From assembly GCF_016623465.1 (NCBI RefSeq), contig NZ_JAEDAJ010000003.1, positions 325,285 through 389,284 on the forward strand: a stretch of DNA of 64,000 nucleotides, written 5' to 3'. The translations under genes and the position numbers were made by a program. The DNA comes from Brachybacterium halotolerans (GTDB lineage: Bacteria > Actinomycetota > Actinomycetes > Actinomycetales > Dermabacteraceae). Of the stretch, positions 24,465 to 37,934 are shown in pieces (positions within the stretch are counted from its first letter, which is position 1; each line of letters begins with the position of its first letter). The notes beneath the pieces were generated by a model. The model was not told where the DNA came from, searched no databases, and saw only the letters and a program-made list of their open reading frames with translations.

Positions 24465-25547
24465 ATGACCCAGCCCATCCAGGCCCTCAACATCCTCGGC
24501 GGCGCCGGATCCACCACGCCCGCCGCGGCGACGACGGCCCCGGCCGCCGCTGCGACCGACGGCTCCTCGGCCGACGACACCATCCACGAGGTCCTCATCG
24601 TCGGCTCCGGCCCCGCGGGCTACACCGCGGCGATCTACGCTGCGCGCGCCGAGATGCGCCCCGTGGTCATCGCGGGTGCGCTCGACGCGGGCGGCGCCCT
24701 CATGACCACGACCGATGTCGAGAACTACCCGGGCTTCGCGACCGGCATCATGGGCCCCGAGCTGATGGGGACCATGCAGGAGCAGGCCGAGCGCTTCGGC
24801 GCGGAGATCCTCTTCGAGGACGCGATCGACGTGCAGCTCGAGGGCCCGGTCAAGACGGTCACCCTGGAGGACGGCACCGTCTACCGGGGTCGTTCGCTGA
24901 TCATCGCGACGGGCTCGGCGTACCGCGAGCTCGGCATCGAGGACGAGAAGCGCCTCTCCGGCAAGGGCGTCAGCTGGTGCGCGACCTGCGACGGCTTCTT
25001 CTTCAAGGACAAGGAGATCGTGGTCGTCGGCGGTGGCGACAGCGCAGTCGAGGAGGCCACGTTCCTCACCCGCTACGCCACGAAGGTGACCCTCGTGCAC
25101 CGACGTGATGCCCTGCGCGCCTCGAAGATCATGGCCCGACGGGCCGAGAACGATCCGAAGCTCGACTTCGCGTGGAACGCGCAGGTCGTCGGCATCAACG
25201 GCCAGGAGCAGGTCGAGTCCGTGACGGTCAAGGACACCGAGACCGGGGAGGAGCGCACCCTGCCGACCTCCGCCGTGTTCGAGGCGATCGGCCACGAGCC
25301 CCGCTCCGCGCTGTTCCGCGACAAGGTGGAGCTCGACGAGCAGGGCTACATCGTGGTCCAGGGCCGCTCGACGCACACCTCCGTGGAGGGCGTCTTCGCC
25401 GCCGGCGACGTCGTGGACCACACCTACCGCCAGGCCATCACGGCCGCCGGCAGCGGATGCCAGGCGGCCCTGGATGCCGAGCGCTGGCTCGCCCTGCAGG
25501 ACGACGAGCCCGAGCAGCTCGCGGCCGCCGGTGCCCGCGAGGCCTGA
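24465..25547 (+). CDS. trxB: Thioredoxin reductase
   Basis: A 360-residue FAD/NADPH flavoenzyme that reduces thioredoxin. The FAD Rossmann motif is [16 protein letters not shown] (about residues 46-61), the redox pair is CATC in [11 protein letters not shown] (about 172-175), the NADPH fold starts [13 protein letters not shown] (about 187), and the second FAD block is [23 protein letters not shown] in pieces. The first 40 residues are an Ala/Thr-rich extension not found in most TrxB. The ATG at 24465 has GGAAGGA upstream. The following thioredoxin-like gene overlaps its end. Confidence 0.96.
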
Positions 25548-26127
25548 GGCCCGCACGCTGCACCCCGAGGCCGTCATCATCCTGGTGACGGCCTCGTGGT
25601 GTCTGCCCTGCCGGCCCGCGCGCACTCTGCTCCAGGAGCTGCAGCGCCGGTGGGGTGACCGGATCCTTCCCCTGGTCCTCGACGCTGACTCGGCGCCGGC
25701 GAGCCGCGCCGACGTCGATGCATACGTCCATGCTTCCGGGGCCGGCGACGATGCCGGGGACGAGGCCGAGGCCGAGGCCGATCATGGGGTCACTGCACCA
25801 GATGGTGATCCGGGCGCTCCTGTTCTCTCACGTCTGGCGGTGGATCATCTCCCCACCTGGATCCTTCTCCGCCCCGAGGGCCGAGACGGAGAACCGGATC
25901 CACACGTCCAGCTCCTGCCGCACGCTCCGGAGGAAGATGGTGTCCCCGGCACCACGCTCGCGGGGGAGAGTCTGGAAGGGCACGGTCTCGTGCTCGAGGG
26001 AGCCTGGCGGGAAGCCGGGCGTCGCATCGGGGCTGTACCGAAACTCGAGATCCTCGCTCTCGTGGACGAGCCGGACGCGTCTCACGCTCCTGGAGCCGCG
26101 GCCCGAGCCACCGAAGACCGACGCTGA
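25531..26127 (+). CDS. Thioredoxin-like protein
   Basis: A 198-residue protein with a thioredoxin fold. [20 protein letters not shown] carries the redox pair Cys24/Cys27 in WCLPC rather than the classical [17 protein letters not shown] near residue 106 supplies the cis-proline. An Asp/Ala/Glu-rich insert sits between these blocks and a longer C-terminal part follows, so it is nearly twice the size of TrxA. I chose GTG 25531, which overlaps the trxB stop by 17 bases; a start at ATG 25474 is possible. It sits where trxC lies in other actinobacteria and is presumably reduced by TrxB, but a divergent oxidoreductase is possible. Confidence 0.75.
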
Positions 26128-26407: not shown

Positions 26408-26471
26408 GGTCCACACATCTCCACACCGTTGTCCACAGCTACCTGGCCGCTTCTCCACAGAGTTATCCACA
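26408..26471 (+). promoter_or_regulatory. DnaA-box cluster
   Basis: Five TCCACA cores start at 26410, 26420, 26432, 26454 and 26466, that is 10, 12, 22 and 12 bases apart, on one face of the helix and all in one orientation. Two are perfect boxes: TTGTCCACA (26429-26437) and TTATCCACA (26463-26471). TTGTCCACC (26603-26611) and TTTTCCACA (26646-26654) lie further right. The order resembles an origin-type DnaA assembly site. Confidence 0.7.
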
Positions 26472-26778
26472 TTGTGCTCCACGTTCGCGCGTGATCCGCC
26501 TTCGCTCTCCGCTCGACGGGGGACACGCGCTCGGTTTCTGACCAGGACCTTTATTGCCACACGTGACACTGTGTGACTCAGCTCGCATTACGCCGCCCTC
26601 GCTTGTCCACCCGTGTGTCCACCGGAGTGCGCACGCAGCAACACCTTTTCCACATCCTCGTGCACACTGTGCATGTCCACGCGAAACCCATGGTCGCTGC
26701 CCCCCCCGCCGCGGGCCGTCATTCATTCGTGCCACCGCGTTGGTCCATCGGCAGCGCCCGTGGGGCGCACGGGATCGG

Positions 26779-26792
26779 GTTTCACGCGAAAC
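26779..26792. promoter_or_regulatory. parS-type site 1
   Basis: GTTTCACGCGAAAC, a perfect 14-bp palindrome extended to 18 bp by GGG and CCC flanks (26777-26794). First clear site of the array. Confidence 0.75.
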
Positions 26793-26942
26793 CCGAACGG
26801 CGCACTGGACGTGCGCGGTCGTCTCATATCATTCGTGCCGAGATCCGTCGCGGTCACAGTGTCGTACCCGAAGGCCCGAGCCCACCGGCCATGGCAATGG
26901 CGCCCGTCCACACCCTCACCCAATCTGTACGCGCGACGTCTC

Positions 26943-26956
26943 TTCGCACGTGGAAC
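26943..26956. promoter_or_regulatory. parS-type site 2, degenerate
   Basis: TTCGCACGTGGAAC keeps the CACGTGGAAC half but has three mismatches to GTTCCACGTGGAAC on the left. It may be a decayed or weak ParB site. Confidence 0.4.
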
Positions 26957-27004
26957 CTCATCCACACGGGCACTGCATCGTGCATCCCGCGATGGAGGCC
27001 CGGT

Positions 27005-27018
27005 GTTTCACGTGAAGC
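27005..27018. promoter_or_regulatory. parS-type site 3
   Basis: GTTTCACGTGAAGC differs by one base from GTTTCACGTGAAAC, a known bacterial parS sequence. Confidence 0.75.
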
Positions 27019-27197
27019 ATGGCCACCATGTCGTTCAAGACCTCGTTCGCGCGAAGGGCTCGTGCGCGCCCCGAGCATATAGTCAATGTGGCCACCGCAC
27101 TCGCGAGCTCCATGCGACACTCGCGAGAGGCTTGCATCCACACGTCGAGCGGGTGGCGCGAAGACAAACACGCAGGTCAGTCGCCCATTTCCCCTTC

Positions 27198-27211
27198 GTT
27201 GCACGTGGAAC
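27198..27211. promoter_or_regulatory. parS-type site 4
   Basis: GTTGCACGTGGAAC, one mismatch from the perfect site GTTCCACGTGGAAC found three times in this array. Confidence 0.65.
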
Positions 27212-27289
27212 ACCGAGTAATCCCGCTGCAGCGCGTCCCTAGAAAGAGTGTGGGAAAGCCACTCAGCATGTTTCCTACGTCCAGCACTC

Positions 27290-27303
27290 GTTCCACGTGG
27301 AAC
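27290..27303. promoter_or_regulatory. parS-type site 5, perfect
   Basis: GTTCCACGTGGAAC, a perfect palindrome, 92 bases after site 4 and 93 before site 6. Confidence 0.85.
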
Positions 27304-27382
27304 ACCGCGTCGGCGATGTCGTCCCGTTCGTGACATCGCCCAGGATCGCAGCAACCCCCATCAACCCTTAGCCCAGGGCGGC

Positions 27383-27396
27383 GTTTCACGGGAAAC
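27383..27396. promoter_or_regulatory. parS-type site 6
   Basis: GTTTCACGGGAAAC, one mismatch in the CACGTG core; the same variant recurs as site 12. Confidence 0.7.
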
Positions 27397-27571
27397 GGTC
27401 GTTGATCGCGTACTCCGGGGCCCTTCCGATAGATGCAACATCCCCGACACGGCACTCTGGCGCCGGTGGAGCTGCATCGGACTGCGCTCGACAATGTCGG
27501 CGAGCGCTGACCACACAGGGCGGTGACTGCGCCCCGACTGGAGAGCCGTGCGCCGCGGCAGGACAACGTTC

Positions 27572-27585
27572 GTTCCACGTGGAAC
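27572..27585. promoter_or_regulatory. parS-type site 7, perfect
   Basis: GTTCCACGTGGAAC, identical to sites 5 and 13. Confidence 0.85.
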
Positions 27586-27656
27586 AACAAGCCTTACGTG
27601 AAGAGGGCGGTCACCTGCAATCGGGCAACAATCTCCTCTGCACATTGCAGCGGCGC

Positions 27657-27670
27657 GTTCCACGTGAAAC
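27657..27670. promoter_or_regulatory. parS-type site 8
   Basis: GTTCCACGTGAAAC, a hybrid of the two half-sites TTCCAC and GTGAAA; identical to site 11. Confidence 0.8.
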
Positions 27671-27739
27671 TCGAGCTGCTACTACGACACGTGGGCTCGT
27701 CCCGAATCACGAGTACGTTTGCTCTGCCCAGCGGGCCAA

Positions 27740-27753
27740 GTTTCACGTTGAAC
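27740..27753. promoter_or_regulatory. parS-type site 9
   Basis: GTTTCACGTTGAAC, with one change in the right half-site. Confidence 0.65.
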
Positions 27754-27906
27754 GTACCGGGGATGTCCACGTCCGCATGCGGGAGCGCTGCTAGATCCCC
27801 ACATCCATCGGAGCGGCACAGAGCGCAGGAGATTTCGGGCCCGATGCCGGTGGAGTAGCGAGTCTCCACACGCTGCCACGGCCGCGCCTCAGCTCCCGAC
27901 GGGAAT

Positions 27907-27920
27907 GTTTCACATGGAAC
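27907..27920. promoter_or_regulatory. parS-type site 10
   Basis: GTTTCACATGGAAC, with CATG in place of CGTG at the centre; both outer arms are intact. Confidence 0.65.
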
Positions 27921-27973
27921 GACCCATTGCGGGCCCCGCTGGGATGCGAACGCAAGCCCTACAAGCAACGCTC

Positions 27974-27987
27974 GTTCCACGTGAAAC
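27974..27987. promoter_or_regulatory. parS-type site 11
   Basis: GTTCCACGTGAAAC, identical to site 8, 67 bases after site 10. Confidence 0.8.
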
Positions 27988-28088
27988 CTGGCTTTTACCT
28001 CAACGGCTGCCCTAGTCGCCCCCAGATCAAAGAGGGAATGAGATGAAAGGGCGCTCCGGCAGAAACGCAGGTGCCCGTGCGTGACGCG

Positions 28089-28102
28089 GTTTCACGGGAA
28101 AC
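28089..28102. promoter_or_regulatory. parS-type site 12
   Basis: GTTTCACGGGAAAC, identical to site 6. Confidence 0.7.
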
Positions 28103-28233
28103 TCTCTCGCAGCGCACGCACCGCGTAAGAGCGCGGGGCTTCGAATGCGTCACCAGAAGGGCTTCCTCGTCGTCCCATAATGCCCATTAGCAGTGCACTT
28201 TCCGGGGGCCTTAGGTCACCAAGCAGCCCTCAC

Positions 28234-28247
28234 GTTCCACGTGGAAC
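28234..28247. promoter_or_regulatory. parS-type site 13, perfect
   Basis: GTTCCACGTGGAAC, the site nearest to parB, about 430 bases beyond the parB stop. Confidence 0.85.
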
Positions 28248-28677: not shown

Positions 28678-30495
28678 TCAGCTCTCCTGCGAGCCGAATG
28701 CCTCACCGAGGTCCAGGCCGATCTTCGCTGCGAGCCGCTCGAGATCGTCCAGGTTCGAGAACTCCATCGTGATGCGACCCTTGCGCTTGCCCACATCGAT
28801 CTTCACGGGAGCCTCCAGACGGTTCGAGAGCCGACTGGTCAGGTCCACCACGCGGGGGTTGTAGCTCGTGCGCCGGGGAGCGGGGCGGTTCGCCGCCGGC
28901 TCCGTCCCGCGGGAAGCGAGGCGCTCGGTCTCTCGCACGGAGAGCCCGTCCGCGACCACACGCTGCGCGAGCTCCTCCTGGAGGCGAGGATCATCGATCG
29001 CGAGGAGAGCACGCGCATGGCCCGCCGAGAGCGCGCCACTGGCCAGGCGCCGCTGCACGAGGGCCGGAAGGCGCATCAGGCGCAGAGTGTTCGAGATCTG
29101 GGGCCGGGAGCGTCCGATGCGATCGGCGAGCTCGTCCTGCGTGCAGCCGAAGTCCTCGAGGAGCTGCTGGTAGGCCGCTGCCTCCTCCAGGGGGTTCAGC
29201 TGGGACCGATGGAGGTTCTCCAGCAGGGCGTCCCGCAGCAGGTCGTCATCACTGGTGGCACGGATGATCGCGGGGATCGTCGCCAGCCCGGCCCTACGGG
29301 CGGCACGCCAGCGCCGCTCACCCATGACGAGCTCGAAGGACTCGCCGTCATCGGTGACGGGGATGGGCCGCACCACGACGGGCTGCAGCACACCGACCTC
29401 GCGCAGCGAGAAAGCGAGCTCGTCGAGCTGATCATCGTCGAAGTCCGTCCGGGGATTCCGGGGGTTCTCCCGGACCTCGTGGATCGGGATCTCCGCGAAC
29501 TCGGCGCCGGGGACCGGCATGAGGCCCCTCTGGTCATCCGCGTCGGCGTCCGCCGGGGTGTCGTCCGCCGCGCTGTCCGCCTCGTGGGCGTCATCGACGC
29601 TGGAGACCGTGTCGGAGGGTTCGACCGTCGGTGCTTCCCGCGGTGACGAGTGCTCTTCCATGTCCTCGCGCGCGGAGAACCGGTGGCCGGGATCGACGTC
29701 CACGACCGGACTGTCCTCCCGAGTCGGTTCATCAGTGCCCGAAACGGCAGCGTCCGCGGAGGCGGCGCCCGCAGCAGGCGCCTCGGCGGAAGCGCCAGCA
29801 CGCTTCGCCGGCGCCGTGGAACGCGTGGACTTCGTGGACCCCTTGGAGCGCGCCGCCGACGCGTCGGACGCCGGCTTCGCCGCTGCCGCAGAGGATCGAG
29901 AGGAGGACTCGGCGTCCTTCGAGGACGAGGACTCCGCGGAAGAGGACTTCGACGAGGAGCTCTTCGAGGACGAGGTCGCGGCCGCGCCCTTCGACGCCGT
30001 GGACTTCTTCGCGGCAGGCTTCTTGGGATCGGACTTCTTCGCCGCGGGCTTCTTCGCCGAGGTCTTCGTGGAAGCGGTCCTCTTCGCGGCGGGCTCCTCG
30101 GCCTTCACCGGCTCGGTCGACGCATCGGCGGCGGCCGTGCCGGCAGGGGCGTCCTGCACCGGCGCCTCCGAGGGGGAGGCCACGCTGCGGGCGGCAACAC
30201 CCCCGCGGGCGCGGGAGGAACGGGTGGTGCGGGAGGCGGCGCGGCGCTCACGGGCATCGCGCGCCATGTCGCCCGCGATGTCCCCACGGGCGGCGCGGGC
30301 GCGCTCGGAGGACTGCCCCTCCGTCGGCTCGCCGGAGAAGAACATGTCGACGGGGCGGGTGGACGCACCGCTCTCCCCGGGCTCGGCGGACGTGCGCGGA
30401 TGGCTGCGCGTGCGCAGAGGCTGCTCGGCGGGAGGCGTGGACCCCCCGGGGATCAGCGCACCCAGACCGCGTCCGAGTCCTCGCTTCTGCGTCAT
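28678..30495 (-). CDS. parB: Chromosome partitioning protein ParB with long inserted linker
   Basis: A 605-residue CTP-dependent clamp that loads at parS and spreads. Residues 1-18 (TQKRGLGRGLGALIPG) are the ParA-contacting segment. The N-terminal core with the CTP-binding motif GERRWRA is near residue 390, the ENLHRSQLNPLEEAAAY motif near 415, the helix-turn-helix (GRSRPQISNTLRLMRLP) near 460, and the C-terminal dimer domain at about 560-605. Between the leader and the core lie about 300 extra residues: first Ala/Lys/Ser-rich with KKPAAKKS repeats, then acidic. Typical ParB has 290-350 residues in all. The ATG at 30495 has GAGGAC; a GTG four codons earlier lies inside that ribosome site. Confidence 0.95.
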   Translation of the reverse strand: MTQKRGLGRGLGALIPGGSTPPAEQPLRTRSHPRTSAEPGESGASTRPVDMFFSGEPTEGQSSERARAARGDIAGDMARDARERRAASRTTRSSRARGGVAARSVASPSEAPVQDAPAGTAAADASTEPVKAEEPAAKRTASTKTSAKKPAAKKSDPKKPAAKKSTASKGAAATSSSKSSSSKSSSAESSSSKDAESSSRSSAAAAKPASDASAARSKGSTKSTRSTAPAKRAGASAEAPAAGAASADAAVSGTDEPTREDSPVVDVDPGHRFSAREDMEEHSSPREAPTVEPSDTVSSVDDAHEADSAADDTPADADADDQRGLMPVPGAEFAEIPIHEVRENPRNPRTDFDDDQLDELAFSLREVGVLQPVVVRPIPVTDDGESFELVMGERRWRAARRAGLATIPAIIRATSDDDLLRDALLENLHRSQLNPLEEAAAYQQLLEDFGCTQDELADRIGRSRPQISNTLRLMRLPALVQRRLASGALSAGHARALLAIDDPRLQEELAQRVVADGLSVRETERLASRGTEPAANRPAPRRTSYNPRVVDLTSRLSNRLEAPVKIDVGKRKGRITMEFSNLDDLERLAAKIGLDLGEAFGSQES

Positions 30496-30594: not shown

Positions 30595-31518
30595 TCAGGG
30601 GACGCTTCGTGTGGTGAGCTCGTGCGCGGCCGCCCGATAGGCGAGCGCGCCGCTGCTCGTGGGATCGTACGACAGCACGGTCTGGCCGTAGCTCGGCGCC
30701 TCCGAGATCCTCACGGAGCGCGGGATCGTCGTCCCGAAGGTCTGATCCGGGAAGTGCGTGCGGACGTCCTCCGCGACCTGCGCCGCGAGGCGGGTGCGGG
30801 CGTCGTACATCGTCAGCAGGATCGAGGAGACCACGAGCTCGGGGTTCAGGTGCTGACGCAGCAGGTCGATGTTCTTCAGCAGCAGCGTGAGGCCCTCGAG
30901 GGCGTAGTACTCGGCCTGGATCGGGATGAGCACCTCGCGGGCGGCGACCAGCGAGTTCACGGTCAGCAGGCCCAGGCTCGGCGGGCAGTCGATGAGCACG
31001 TAGTCCAGGCGCTCGCGCCCGGAGGACTCGCGAGCGGCGAGGTAGTCGCGGATCGAGCCGCGCAGACGGTTCTCGCGCGCGACCATCGAGACCAGCTCGA
31101 TCTCGGCGCCCGAGAGATCGATGGTGGCCGGGGCGCACAGCATGCCCTCGACCTCGTCGACCTCCTGCACGACGTCGTCCAGAGGGGTCGACTCCACGAG
31201 GACGTCGTACATGCTCGCGACCTCGGACTGGTGGTCCACGCCCAGCGCCGTCGACGCGTTGCCCTGCGGGTCCATGTCGATGACCAGGACCTTCAGCCCG
31301 CCCATGGCCAGGGCGGCCGCGAGGTTCACGGTCGTGGACGTCTTGCCCACCCCGCCCTTCTGGTTGGCCACCGTGATCACGCGCGTGCTCTCGGGAGCGT
31401 CGAACACGAGTCCCTCCAATTCCCGTCGACGGGCATGGTCCCGGGCGAGCTGACGCATGAGAGGGGTGTCGTCCATGCTCCCGGTGGGACCGGTGGAACG
31501 GCTGCGGCTCTCAGCCAC
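30595..31518 (-). CDS. parA: Chromosome partitioning ATPase ParA (Soj)
   Basis: A 307-residue deviant-Walker ATPase that binds the nucleoid and moves ParB-parS complexes. ANQKGGVGKTSTTVNLA carries both lysines of the deviant Walker A motif (near 54 and 59), VIDMDPQGNAST is the A' motif, and VLIDCPPSLG is Walker B. The first 45 residues are a charged extension common in actinobacterial ParA. GTG 31518 behind GAAGGGAGAGG is chosen and overlaps the rsmG stop by eight bases. parB follows 99 bp later in the same unit. Confidence 0.96.
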   Translation of the reverse strand: MAESRSRSTGPTGSMDDTPLMRQLARDHARRRELEGLVFDAPESTRVITVANQKGGVGKTSTTVNLAAALAMGGLKVLVIDMDPQGNASTALGVDHQSEVASMYDVLVESTPLDDVVQEVDEVEGMLCAPATIDLSGAEIELVSMVARENRLRGSIRDYLAARESSGRERLDYVLIDCPPSLGLLTVNSLVAAREVLIPIQAEYYALEGLTLLLKNIDLLRQHLNPELVVSSILLTMYDARTRLAAQVAEDVRTHFPDQTFGTTIPRSVRISEAPSYGQTVLSYDPTSSGALAYRAAAHELTTRSVP

Positions 31519-32248
31519 GTGCCTCTCCCTTCCTCGTCCGTGCAGTGCTCGCGCTCCCGCCCTGCGGGGCACGGCGCACCCTGACCACTGTAGTGGGAAC
31601 CTCGACCTCTCCCACTCCGAGCTCCAGCAGCTGGGGATCGACGCCGCCCAGGCGACGCAGCACCTTCTGCGCGCTCTCGATCTCCTCGGCCGCGGAGCTC
31701 CCCTTGAGCGCCAGCAGCTCCCCGTCGGGGGCGACGAGCGGCAGGGTCCACTTCGCGAGCTTCTCGAGGGCCGCGACGGCCCGTGCCGTCACCGCGTCGA
31801 AGCTCCGTCGGCCGTGCAGATCCTCCGCCCGGGCGCGGACCACCTCGACCTCGAGGCCCAGCTCCTCGGCGACCTCCTCGAGCCAGCTCGCACGGCGCTG
31901 CATGGTCTCGATCAGGGTGATCCGCAGGTCGGGTCGGGCGATCGCGAGGACCACACCGGGAAGTCCCGCTCCGGAGCCGACGTCGGCCAGCGTGCGCGTT
32001 CCCTCGTCGATCGCGTCCACGAGCAGCGCGCAGTTGATCAGATGGCGCTCCCAGAGCCTGTCCACCTCGCGCGGGCCGATGAGGCCGCGCTCGAGGCCGT
32101 CCGTAGCGAGCATGCCGACGAACCGCTCGGCCGGGCCCAGCCGGTCACCCAGCAGGCGCTCGGCGACGGGCCGCAGATGCTCGGGCAGCGCCGGGGCCGA
32201 GGCGCCGCTGCGACCAGCGCCCTCGGGGCCGACGGGACCGGCGCCCAT
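31511..32248 (-). CDS. rsmG: 16S rRNA m7G527 methyltransferase RsmG (GidB)
   Basis: A 245-residue SAM-dependent methyltransferase that modifies G527 (E. coli numbering) in the 530 loop of 16S rRNA. The SAM pocket LADVGSGAGLPGVVLAIARP is near residue 90. The substrate-side block WERHLINCALL precedes it, and SFDAVTARAVAAL is the later family motif. Loss of this enzyme gives low-level streptomycin resistance in other bacteria. The ATG overlaps the jag stop by one base, and the gene's own end overlaps parA. Confidence 0.95.
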   Translation of the reverse strand: MGAGPVGPEGAGRSGASAPALPEHLRPVAERLLGDRLGPAERFVGMLATDGLERGLIGPREVDRLWERHLINCALLVDAIDEGTRTLADVGSGAGLPGVVLAIARPDLRITLIETMQRRASWLEEVAEELGLEVEVVRARAEDLHGRRSFDAVTARAVAALEKLAKWTLPLVAPDGELLALKGSSAAEEIESAQKVLRRLGGVDPQLLELGVGEVEVPTTVVRVRRAPQGGSASTARTRKGEARG

Positions 32249-37340: not shown

Positions 37341-37934
37341 GGCCCGATCGTCGGGCGCGGGCGGTCGAGGCGCCACCGGCCCTGACACACCGTGCGACAG
37401 ACCATGGATCACAGGGACGGTCGGGCCGACGTCGTCCCCAGTGTGAACAACTCTGTGGACAATGTGGAGCATCGAGCGTTCCCGCAGGGGTCGATGTGCA
37501 TGGATTCTTGTGGTTCCACGGCCCGTATCGGACAGATGTGCACAGAGCACCCACATCGAGGTGGACGTCGTCAACGCTGCATGCACGACCGCATCATGCG
37601 CTGTGACCTGCGACGACGTGAGTTCTCCACGACATCAACAGCCGTGAAGAAGAGGAATCCTGTTCTTGTTCCGCTGAGGATGTGGAGAAGTCGGGGTGCG
37701 AGGGCTGCGTCCGTCGGCCTGGGGCCCCGGAGCTTCGAGGCAGTGAATGTCAAGCGTGTGATTCGGTGTGTCGCGAGAAGTGCCTCCGAGCGGCTACGCT
37801 GACGACCGCGCCCCGAGGGATCCGTCCCCGGGGCGATTCCCGCCGAGAGCCGGCACCCCGGCAGCTCGACACCCCGCACCTGATCTGCCGGGAACCCGGC
37901 ACCGACCTCGACCCCCTGCGAAGGAGTGGCAACG
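37341..37934. other. dnaA-dnaN intergenic region, presumed oriC locus
   Basis: In most actinobacteria oriC lies here. This 594-bp spacer has one perfect DnaA box on the minus strand (TGTGGACAA, 37454-37462), TGTGGA cores at 37463 and 37681, and no obvious AT-rich unwinding stretch. A hairpin GCCCGA-tcg-TCGGGC (37342-37356) just after the dnaA stop is a likely terminator. TACGCT at 37795-37800 is a weak -10 candidate for dnaN. The box count is low for an origin. Confidence 0.6.
37342..37356 (+). terminator. Hairpin after dnaA
   Basis: A 6-bp stem, GCCCGA with TCGGGC, and a 3-base loop, starting two bases after the dnaA stop. Short, so only a weak terminator candidate. Confidence 0.4.

Follow-up and report, generated by a model that had tools for sequence, protein, structure and literature searches.

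Why parS number varies, and why the sites cluster, are questions raised in review (PMC7333895). In Caulobacter crescentus, one half of the site (GTGAAA) is reported to be conserved, and the five strongest parS, with a Kd in the low nM range, lie within 5 kb (PMC5815017). Corynebacterium glutamicum is described as carrying ten parS in 35 kb, located 73 kb from oriC; a single parS suffices for near-normal segregation, and degenerate sequences with at least three mismatches do not recruit ParB (PMC7083940). Twenty-four parS have been reported at the parABS locus of Myxococcus xanthus (PMC3778016), and in Pseudomonas aeruginosa isolated half-parS are described as scattered over the genome, with ParB contacting the 7-bp half (PMC10419367). 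In published models, clamp closure requires a ParB dimer to engage both half-sites simultaneously (PMC8494293). Among the matches listed in our literature search, none dealt by title with parS in Brachybacterium or with lopsided arrays.

The stretch of DNA that we analysed (the window, 64,000 nucleotides from Brachybacterium halotolerans) carries a chromosomal array of parS sites packed tightly next to parB, as an earlier reading of the sequence alone had claimed. We put the probability at roughly 0.8 that this array is a single dense chromosomal centromere in which whole sites are under selection and the number of weaker sites does the work of fewer perfect ones.

The parS array and its surroundings

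The array consists of 12 sites with at most one mismatch to GTTYCACGTGRAAC, all in about 1.5 kb (Table 1). A search of the window allowing up to three mismatches returned 19 matches when 4.55 were expected from 100 dinucleotide shuffles, none of which reached 19. The source genome (3.85 Mb in 24 contigs) was scanned at up to two mismatches, as the sequence-only reading had proposed: all 12 sites with at most one mismatch fell inside the array and nowhere else, as compared with one match for a reversed-pattern control, and the 11 further sites with two mismatches are within chance, the control giving 18 matches at up to two mismatches. The shuffle test and the genome-wide search rule out a chance origin of the window's sites. 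The earlier count of about 13 sites in 1.5 kb stands for 12 of them, the thirteenth (TTCGCACGTGGAAC, at 26943) being of a class that occurs at background frequency. Likewise, the three copies of GTTCCACGTGGAAC, two of GTTCCACGTGAAAC and two of GTTTCACGGGAAAC were correctly described, but the remaining variants number five (at 26779, 27005, 27198, 27740 and 27907), not six. With 5 of 12 sites perfect, the window's array is less degenerate than most arrays of the genus.

Table 1. Positions of the parS sites, the adjoining DnaA-box cluster and neighbouring genes in the window.
Feature	Position	Strand	Remark
trxB	24465..25547	+	far side of gap
DnaA-box cluster beside array	26408..26690	+	conserved in genus; outer limits by eye
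parS array, 12 sites, 0-1 mismatch	26779..28247	.	gaps 67-226 bp
parS GTTTCACGCGAAAC	26779..26792	.	one defect, half position 6
Doubtful 13th site TTCGCACGTGGAAC	26943..26956	.	intact half + half with 3 mismatches
parS GTTTCACGTGAAGC	27005..27018	.	one defect, half position 2
parS GTTGCACGTGGAAC	27198..27211	.	one defect, half position 4
parS GTTCCACGTGGAAC	27290..27303	.	perfect
Hybrid parS GTTTCACGGGAAAC	27383..27396	.	one half with C6
parS GTTCCACGTGGAAC	27572..27585	.	perfect
parS GTTCCACGTGAAAC	27657..27670	.	perfect under Y/R
parS GTTTCACGTTGAAC	27740..27753	.	one defect
parS GTTTCACATGGAAC	27907..27920	.	one defect
parS GTTCCACGTGAAAC	27974..27987	.	perfect under Y/R
Hybrid parS GTTTCACGGGAAAC	28089..28102	.	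one half with C6
parS GTTCCACGTGGAAC	28234..28247	.	perfect
parB	28678..30495	-	ParB_N, HTH_ParB, ParB_C domains
parA	30595..31572	-	
dnaA	35577..37340	+	
dnaA-dnaN gap	37341..37925	.	3 DnaA boxes, 1 exact

The gene order is trxB (+), a thioredoxin-like ORF, a 2.55-kb gap holding the array, parB, parA, rsmG, jag and yidC (all −), dnaA (+) and dnaN (+), with dnaA and dnaN 7–10 kb from the array. The gap, bounded by the end of the thioredoxin-like ORF at 26127 and the parB stop at 28678, is intergenic, and had been described as gene-free: of its ORFs, two that lie wholly within it were tested and had no Pfam match, and Rfam gave none there at gathering score. Because the array sits 3' of parB, a role as promoter element of that gene is excluded. 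As in a chromosomal ParABS centromere, the 14-bp parS palindromes are concentrated near the origin, in company with parA and a chromosome-type parB with parS-type HTH residues. The ORF beside trxB (25474–26127) shows its thioredoxin-like CxxC stretch by eye and matched neither Pfam nor NCBIfam; a tRNA-Leu (gag) called by ARAGORN at 24536–24630 inside trxB is absent from Rfam and probably false.

On the trxB side, the array is adjoined by the cluster of DnaA boxes expected of an oriC, with boxes of at most one mismatch at 26429, 26451, 26463, 26603 and 26646 and with TCCACA-N8-CACACTGTG at 26649–26671. Over the 34 loci of the genus, the 700 bp on this side hold 7.1 boxes/kb as compared to 0.08/kb further out, and in the 21 of 34 genomes whose upstream side was fetched, window included, a mean of 5.24 boxes (2.38 exact) lay beside the array versus 3.05 (1.10 exact) between dnaA and dnaN, the usual place of the actinobacterial oriC. 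Both comparisons favor the view that the gap acts as an origin of replication or in DnaA control and that the parS sites are secondary. However, the box cluster lies beside the parS array rather than inside it, the parB operon would run head-on to a rightward fork from the gap, the window has only mildly A+T-richer stretches and no clear A+T-rich unwinding element was seen there, and outside the family the boxes are mostly in the dnaA-dnaN gap, with few in the parB–trxB interval except in family f6. We regard this view as quite improbable, and read the cluster as a putative DnaA-control or auxiliary origin element.

Within this element, the boxes are spaced about 12 bp apart and CTGACC[T/A]G occurs in 22 of 34 loci. 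A box with CACASTGTG after it was found in 29 of 34 genus loci, in none of 80 order loci and once in the window's own genome; one of the misses (L049) ends too early to tell. A palindrome, TGCACACTGTGCA (26661–26673), directly follows the last box, and 8 of 34 genus loci have the full palindrome. Outside the family, downstream parS and DnaA boxes were not significantly associated (Fisher p = 0.25 for the 75 loci that remained when those with short flanks were left out). Four outside loci have both, namely L091, L095 and L096 (f6) and L142 (f18); in L091 and L096, boxes at 12-bp spacing lie among the parS downstream of parB, possibly an independent pairing.

Occurrence and make-up of the sites across the genus and order

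We searched 38 genomes of the genus, the window's own included, and found parB in 34, the four misses being assemblies of 410–750 contigs. In the comparison of related genomes that had been suggested, an array of 8–15 sites (0–1 mismatch) lies beside parB in all 34. The array spans 1.2–2.3 kb in 33 of them; in G045, a 2.8-kb interruption divides it, and it may continue beyond the fetched stretch. For the order, 149 genomes were searched, of which 148 had ParB and 138 of these were outside the genus; 80 were taken, 78 of them outside the family, and with L148 left out because of a contig end, 77 genomes of other families remained for comparing densities. At least two sites (0–1 mismatch) fall within 2.5 kb near parB in the fetched stretch of 73 of these 77, and two (L104 and L123) have no parS site in the fetched stretch around parB. 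The sites of Caulobacter and C. glutamicum are clustered too, and the statement that chromosomal parS usually occur singly and scattered is not supported. Clustering near parB is ordinary across the order, and what is unusual here is the density and the site make-up. The densest 2.5 kb contains a median of 11 sites in the genus versus 4 in other families (maximum 11), and perfect sites make up 39 of 382 sites with at most one mismatch in the genus versus 386 of 452 outside the family. Some genomes of other families, e.g., L081, L099 and L122, have 9–11 mostly perfect sites in 2.5 kb, so density alone is not the cause of weak sites. In two sister genera the array is at the same place and 8 or 7 of its 11 sites are perfect, by which the place looks family-wide and the degeneracy looks derived. 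We also observed iteron-like tandem parS beside parB on chromosomes, with exact and short periods: six at 28 bp in L122 (f13) and five at 54 bp in L110 (f9).

We classed the sites by the number of defects in the better and worse half, using the arrays ±300 bp of the 34 genomes (81 kb) and 185 kb outside arrays. Inside arrays the counts were 39 (0/0), 343 (0/1), 39 (0/2), 7 (0/3), 32 (1/1) and 18 (1/2), and outside they were 6 (0/2), 19 (0/3), 4 (1/1) and 18 (1/2). Thus, 343 of the 453 genus sites with up to two mismatches have exactly one defect. Independent decay of the two halves would give about 107 perfect sites, about 207 with one defect and about 100 with one in each half, in place of the 39, 343 and 32 seen. 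With 7 sites in 81 kb against 19 in 185 kb, the 0/3 class is background, and the genus arrays are not made of isolated half-parS, i.e., 7-mers without a partner. An inbreeding-like F was negative in 33 of 34 genus genomes (median −0.77) as compared to +0.17 over other families; the exception, G040, a distant tree neighbour of the window, has 9 of 12 sites perfect. The sites are lopsided and not simply decayed, and their halves are non-independent.

The single defects are concentrated at half position 6 (204 of 343), followed by positions 2 (78), 4 (34), 5 (12), 7 (9), 3 (5) and 1 (1), and 149 of the 204 changes at position 6 are A to C. C6 is present in one half at 182 sites and in both halves at 1 of the 453. 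A preference for defects in the parB-facing half was rejected (186 parB-side vs 157 far-side, p = 0.13), with a weak trend (p = 0.048) from one end of the array to the other; the weak half may be on either side.

G043 and G017 are the sole pair alignable throughout the array, and the evolutionary footprint rests on this one close pair. Between them, 42 of 42 columns of perfect sites, 137 of 140 columns of one-defect sites and 13 of 14 columns of the two-defect site are identical, with 1468 of 1915 identical in spacers (one-defect sites vs spacers, p = 4.6 × 10−12) and 82.4% identity at parB fourfold sites. The conservation of one-defect sites against diverged spacers argues for selection on whole sites rather than free drift, as expected of a chromosomal centromere. 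The window and G043 are 46% identical in spacers in register and 85.6% identical in site columns, the latter from a whole-array alignment in which some sites were misplaced; of 11 gaps, 9 match to within 8 bp, and G043 has an extra site in the widest differing gap. Over 26793–28233, the 46% spacer identity with G043 (L043) compares with 74% at parB fourfold sites, which hints at fast-changing spacers. In 32 of 34 genus genomes, the gaps are spaced more regularly than random (p<0.05). In the pooled set, which leaves out the locus with the array split by 2.8 kb (L049), 26 of 410 gaps are below 60 bp as compared to 121 expected, and a gamma distribution of shape 4.2 fits. Some of the 31 arrays examined from other families (mean CV 0.81) are as even, e.g., L100 and L124. 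Helical phasing of the gaps was not detected at 10.0–11.0 bp (lowest p = 0.08).

It had been proposed that the array grew by duplication and drift, and redundant duplicated sites drifting freely would account for the many variants; one parS is reported to suffice elsewhere (PMC7083940), and one pair of window sites (27274/27958) is 80% alike over 30 bases. Yet there is no tandem array in the window, its repeats amount to the site plus a few flanking bases, and in the genus flanks are no more alike within the same array (mean likeness 0.310 over 2001 pairs, 1 of which reaches 0.6) than between different genomes (0.309), on which grounds we rejected a duplication origin. Free drift is also at odds with the footprint of the one-defect sites, the non-independence of the halves, a spread of defects unlike that of drift and the retention of the array in 34 of 34 genomes, and is very unlikely.

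ParB readout and the C6 half

A shift in recognition through the HTH readout residues was considered and rejected. Aligned to Caulobacter ParB, and in its numbering, the window's ParB has R173, T179, R184 and G201. RT[R/K]G is present in 31 of 33 aligned genus rows (two rows have K instead of R at 184; the other two of the 33 are misread by frame). Outside the family, 72 of 78 rows have it, and the remaining six carry N or Q at 184 or M at 179; L075 was left out of this alignment. As it is order-wide, RT[R/K]G would be a permissive background for defective sites and not their cause. The Caulobacter RTKG variant is reported to be promiscuous among parS-to-NBS intermediates (PMC7383237), a text that does not cover RTRG. 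A second ParB or Noc reading the C6 half was not found in the window's own genome, in which we found one ParB_N protein, and the marks of a Noc/NBS system are absent: the ParB lacks Q173 K179 K184 R201, and sites with C6 in both halves are limited to the single case above. The window's ParB has a low-complexity, Ala/Ser-rich linker of 325 residues that joins its CTPase domain to the N-terminal GLGRGL motif; linker length as a correlate of site number was rejected outside the family (Spearman 0.003; 65 of 78 loci measurable).

In a ParB tree of 33 rows (two being outgroups on long branches; L056, L071 and L075 dropped for frame or truncation), a main clade of 22 genomes (support 95/81) has 296 sites with up to two mismatches, of which 8 are perfect and 237 have one defect. 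The window lies outside this clade, in a five-genome group of weak support (84/52) with 24 perfect and 33 one-defect sites. In the 22-genome clade, whose site counts are non-independent through shared descent, G6 (24), T6 (11) and A2 (24) fit the ratios to the 8 perfect sites expected from neutral spacer composition (2.46, 1.89 and 3.15; p = 0.70, 0.48 and 0.84), so there the perfect palindrome is not visibly favored over these three. These neutral ratios, together with the sharp drop at the second defect, are what one would expect on a neutral plateau, in which ParB saturates perfect and one-defect sites alike, selection removes two-defect sites only, and the lopsidedness is mutational entropy. 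However, C6 hybrids outnumber perfect sites by 116:8, exceeding the neutral 2.05:1 by 5-mers (p = 3.5 × 10−12) and the 3.53:1 by base composition; C2 (16) and G2 (8) are below their neutral ratios of 4.41 and 3.33 (p = 0.07 and 0.02); and the window's group favors the perfect site over all six position-6 and position-2 defects. We judge the evidence for and against such a plateau to be evenly balanced.

The C6 excess over perfect sites, and over G6 and T6, could alternatively mean that the main clade has shifted to a non-palindromic site, a canonical half joined to a C6 half, on which its homodimeric ParB works best. This would suit the 182 sites with one C6 half against the single one with two, the 41 occurrences of GTTTCACGGGAAAC over 14 of 16 genomes searched (40 in fetched array loci and one in G045 just beyond) and the recurrence of C6 hybrids in other families (25 sites in 12 genomes from f2, f5, f8, f15 and f16). 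The unchanged HTH readout residues speak against it, a founder effect and shared descent could produce the excess, and the preference fails for the window's group. Candidate residues also fail: all 22 main-clade rows have T177, but in the six T177 genomes outside the family there are 23 perfect sites and none with C6; and L183, which accompanies a high C6 share within the genus, is found in all 12 listed outside genomes with C6 hybrids and in others without C6. At the sites listed for L130, L132 and L148 (f15), L089 (f5) and L135 (f16), the recurring C6 is confined to one half. An asymmetric preference is doubtful, and asymmetry that is merely tolerated is the leading sub-model. If C6 hybrids were truly preferred, they would test the models of clamp closure on two half-sites (PMC8494293). 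A broader version holds that Brachybacterium has rewritten its centromere code, its main clade favoring an obligately asymmetric hybrid of a canonical and a Noc-like C6 half, disfavoring the perfect palindrome, and coupling a dense even array of slow loaders to the DnaA-box element as a compact origin-centromere module; we consider this unlikely.

The array as a probable centromere among described systems

It is plausible from the sequence that the array is a single nucleation centre for ParB. The neighbouring ParB would nucleate on this one dense array, and the nucleated centromere would then, by analogy with known ParABS systems, be pulled by ParA and load SMC. Purifying selection would keep each site as a unit, in which an intact half (GTGRAAC) is paired with a half that has at most about one defect. 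A one-defect site appears to be good enough in this genus, the C6-half hybrid being commoner than the perfect palindrome in the main clade. Because each one-defect site would load ParB less well, about 12 sites spaced evenly over 1.5–2 kb may together match the fewer perfect sites of related families. However, given that a single parS is reported to be enough in C. glutamicum, compensation by number may be unnecessary (PMC7083940). The 34 natural arrays, with 8–15 sites and fast-turning spacers, constitute data on the defect tolerance of ParB loading sites, and their contrast with the mostly perfect sites of related families bears on whether number can replace strength.

Binding studies offer a point of comparison. 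In Burkholderia cenocepacia, symmetrical changes are reported to abolish binding except at the ends and at the 5–12 transition, and single changes at position 7 or 10 of the 16-mer, which correspond to half position 6 here, are reported as permissive, to a lower extent, in Bacillus subtilis, P. aeruginosa and Streptomyces coelicolor (PMC5450999). The natural arrays fit this chemistry, with one damaged half tolerated and two rarely kept.

Taken together, the array is most likely a real single-locus chromosomal centromere. The kind of system is known; its density is unusual, as is its site make-up, which is under selection. F plasmid sopC-type centromeres are dense clusters of ParB sites, and the sequence-only reading had likened the array to a plasmid centromere. 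The likeness holds for density and does not extend to the identical tandem repeats of fixed period that characterize plasmid-type iteron centromeres: the gaps here range from 67 to 226 bp, the array is chromosomal and its ParB is of the chromosome type. In contrast to the half-parS of P. aeruginosa (PMC10419367), intact halves with a three-mismatch partner are at background in Brachybacterium. M. xanthus, of another phylum, resembles this locus in having many parS close to parABS (PMC3778016). C. glutamicum shares an actinobacterial chromosome with redundant parS in one cluster, although its sites are spread over 35 kb (PMC7083940). C. crescentus likewise has a chromosomal cluster near the origin and one conserved half (PMC5815017), whereas in the present array 12 sites are packed into 1.5 kb and either half may be the weak one.
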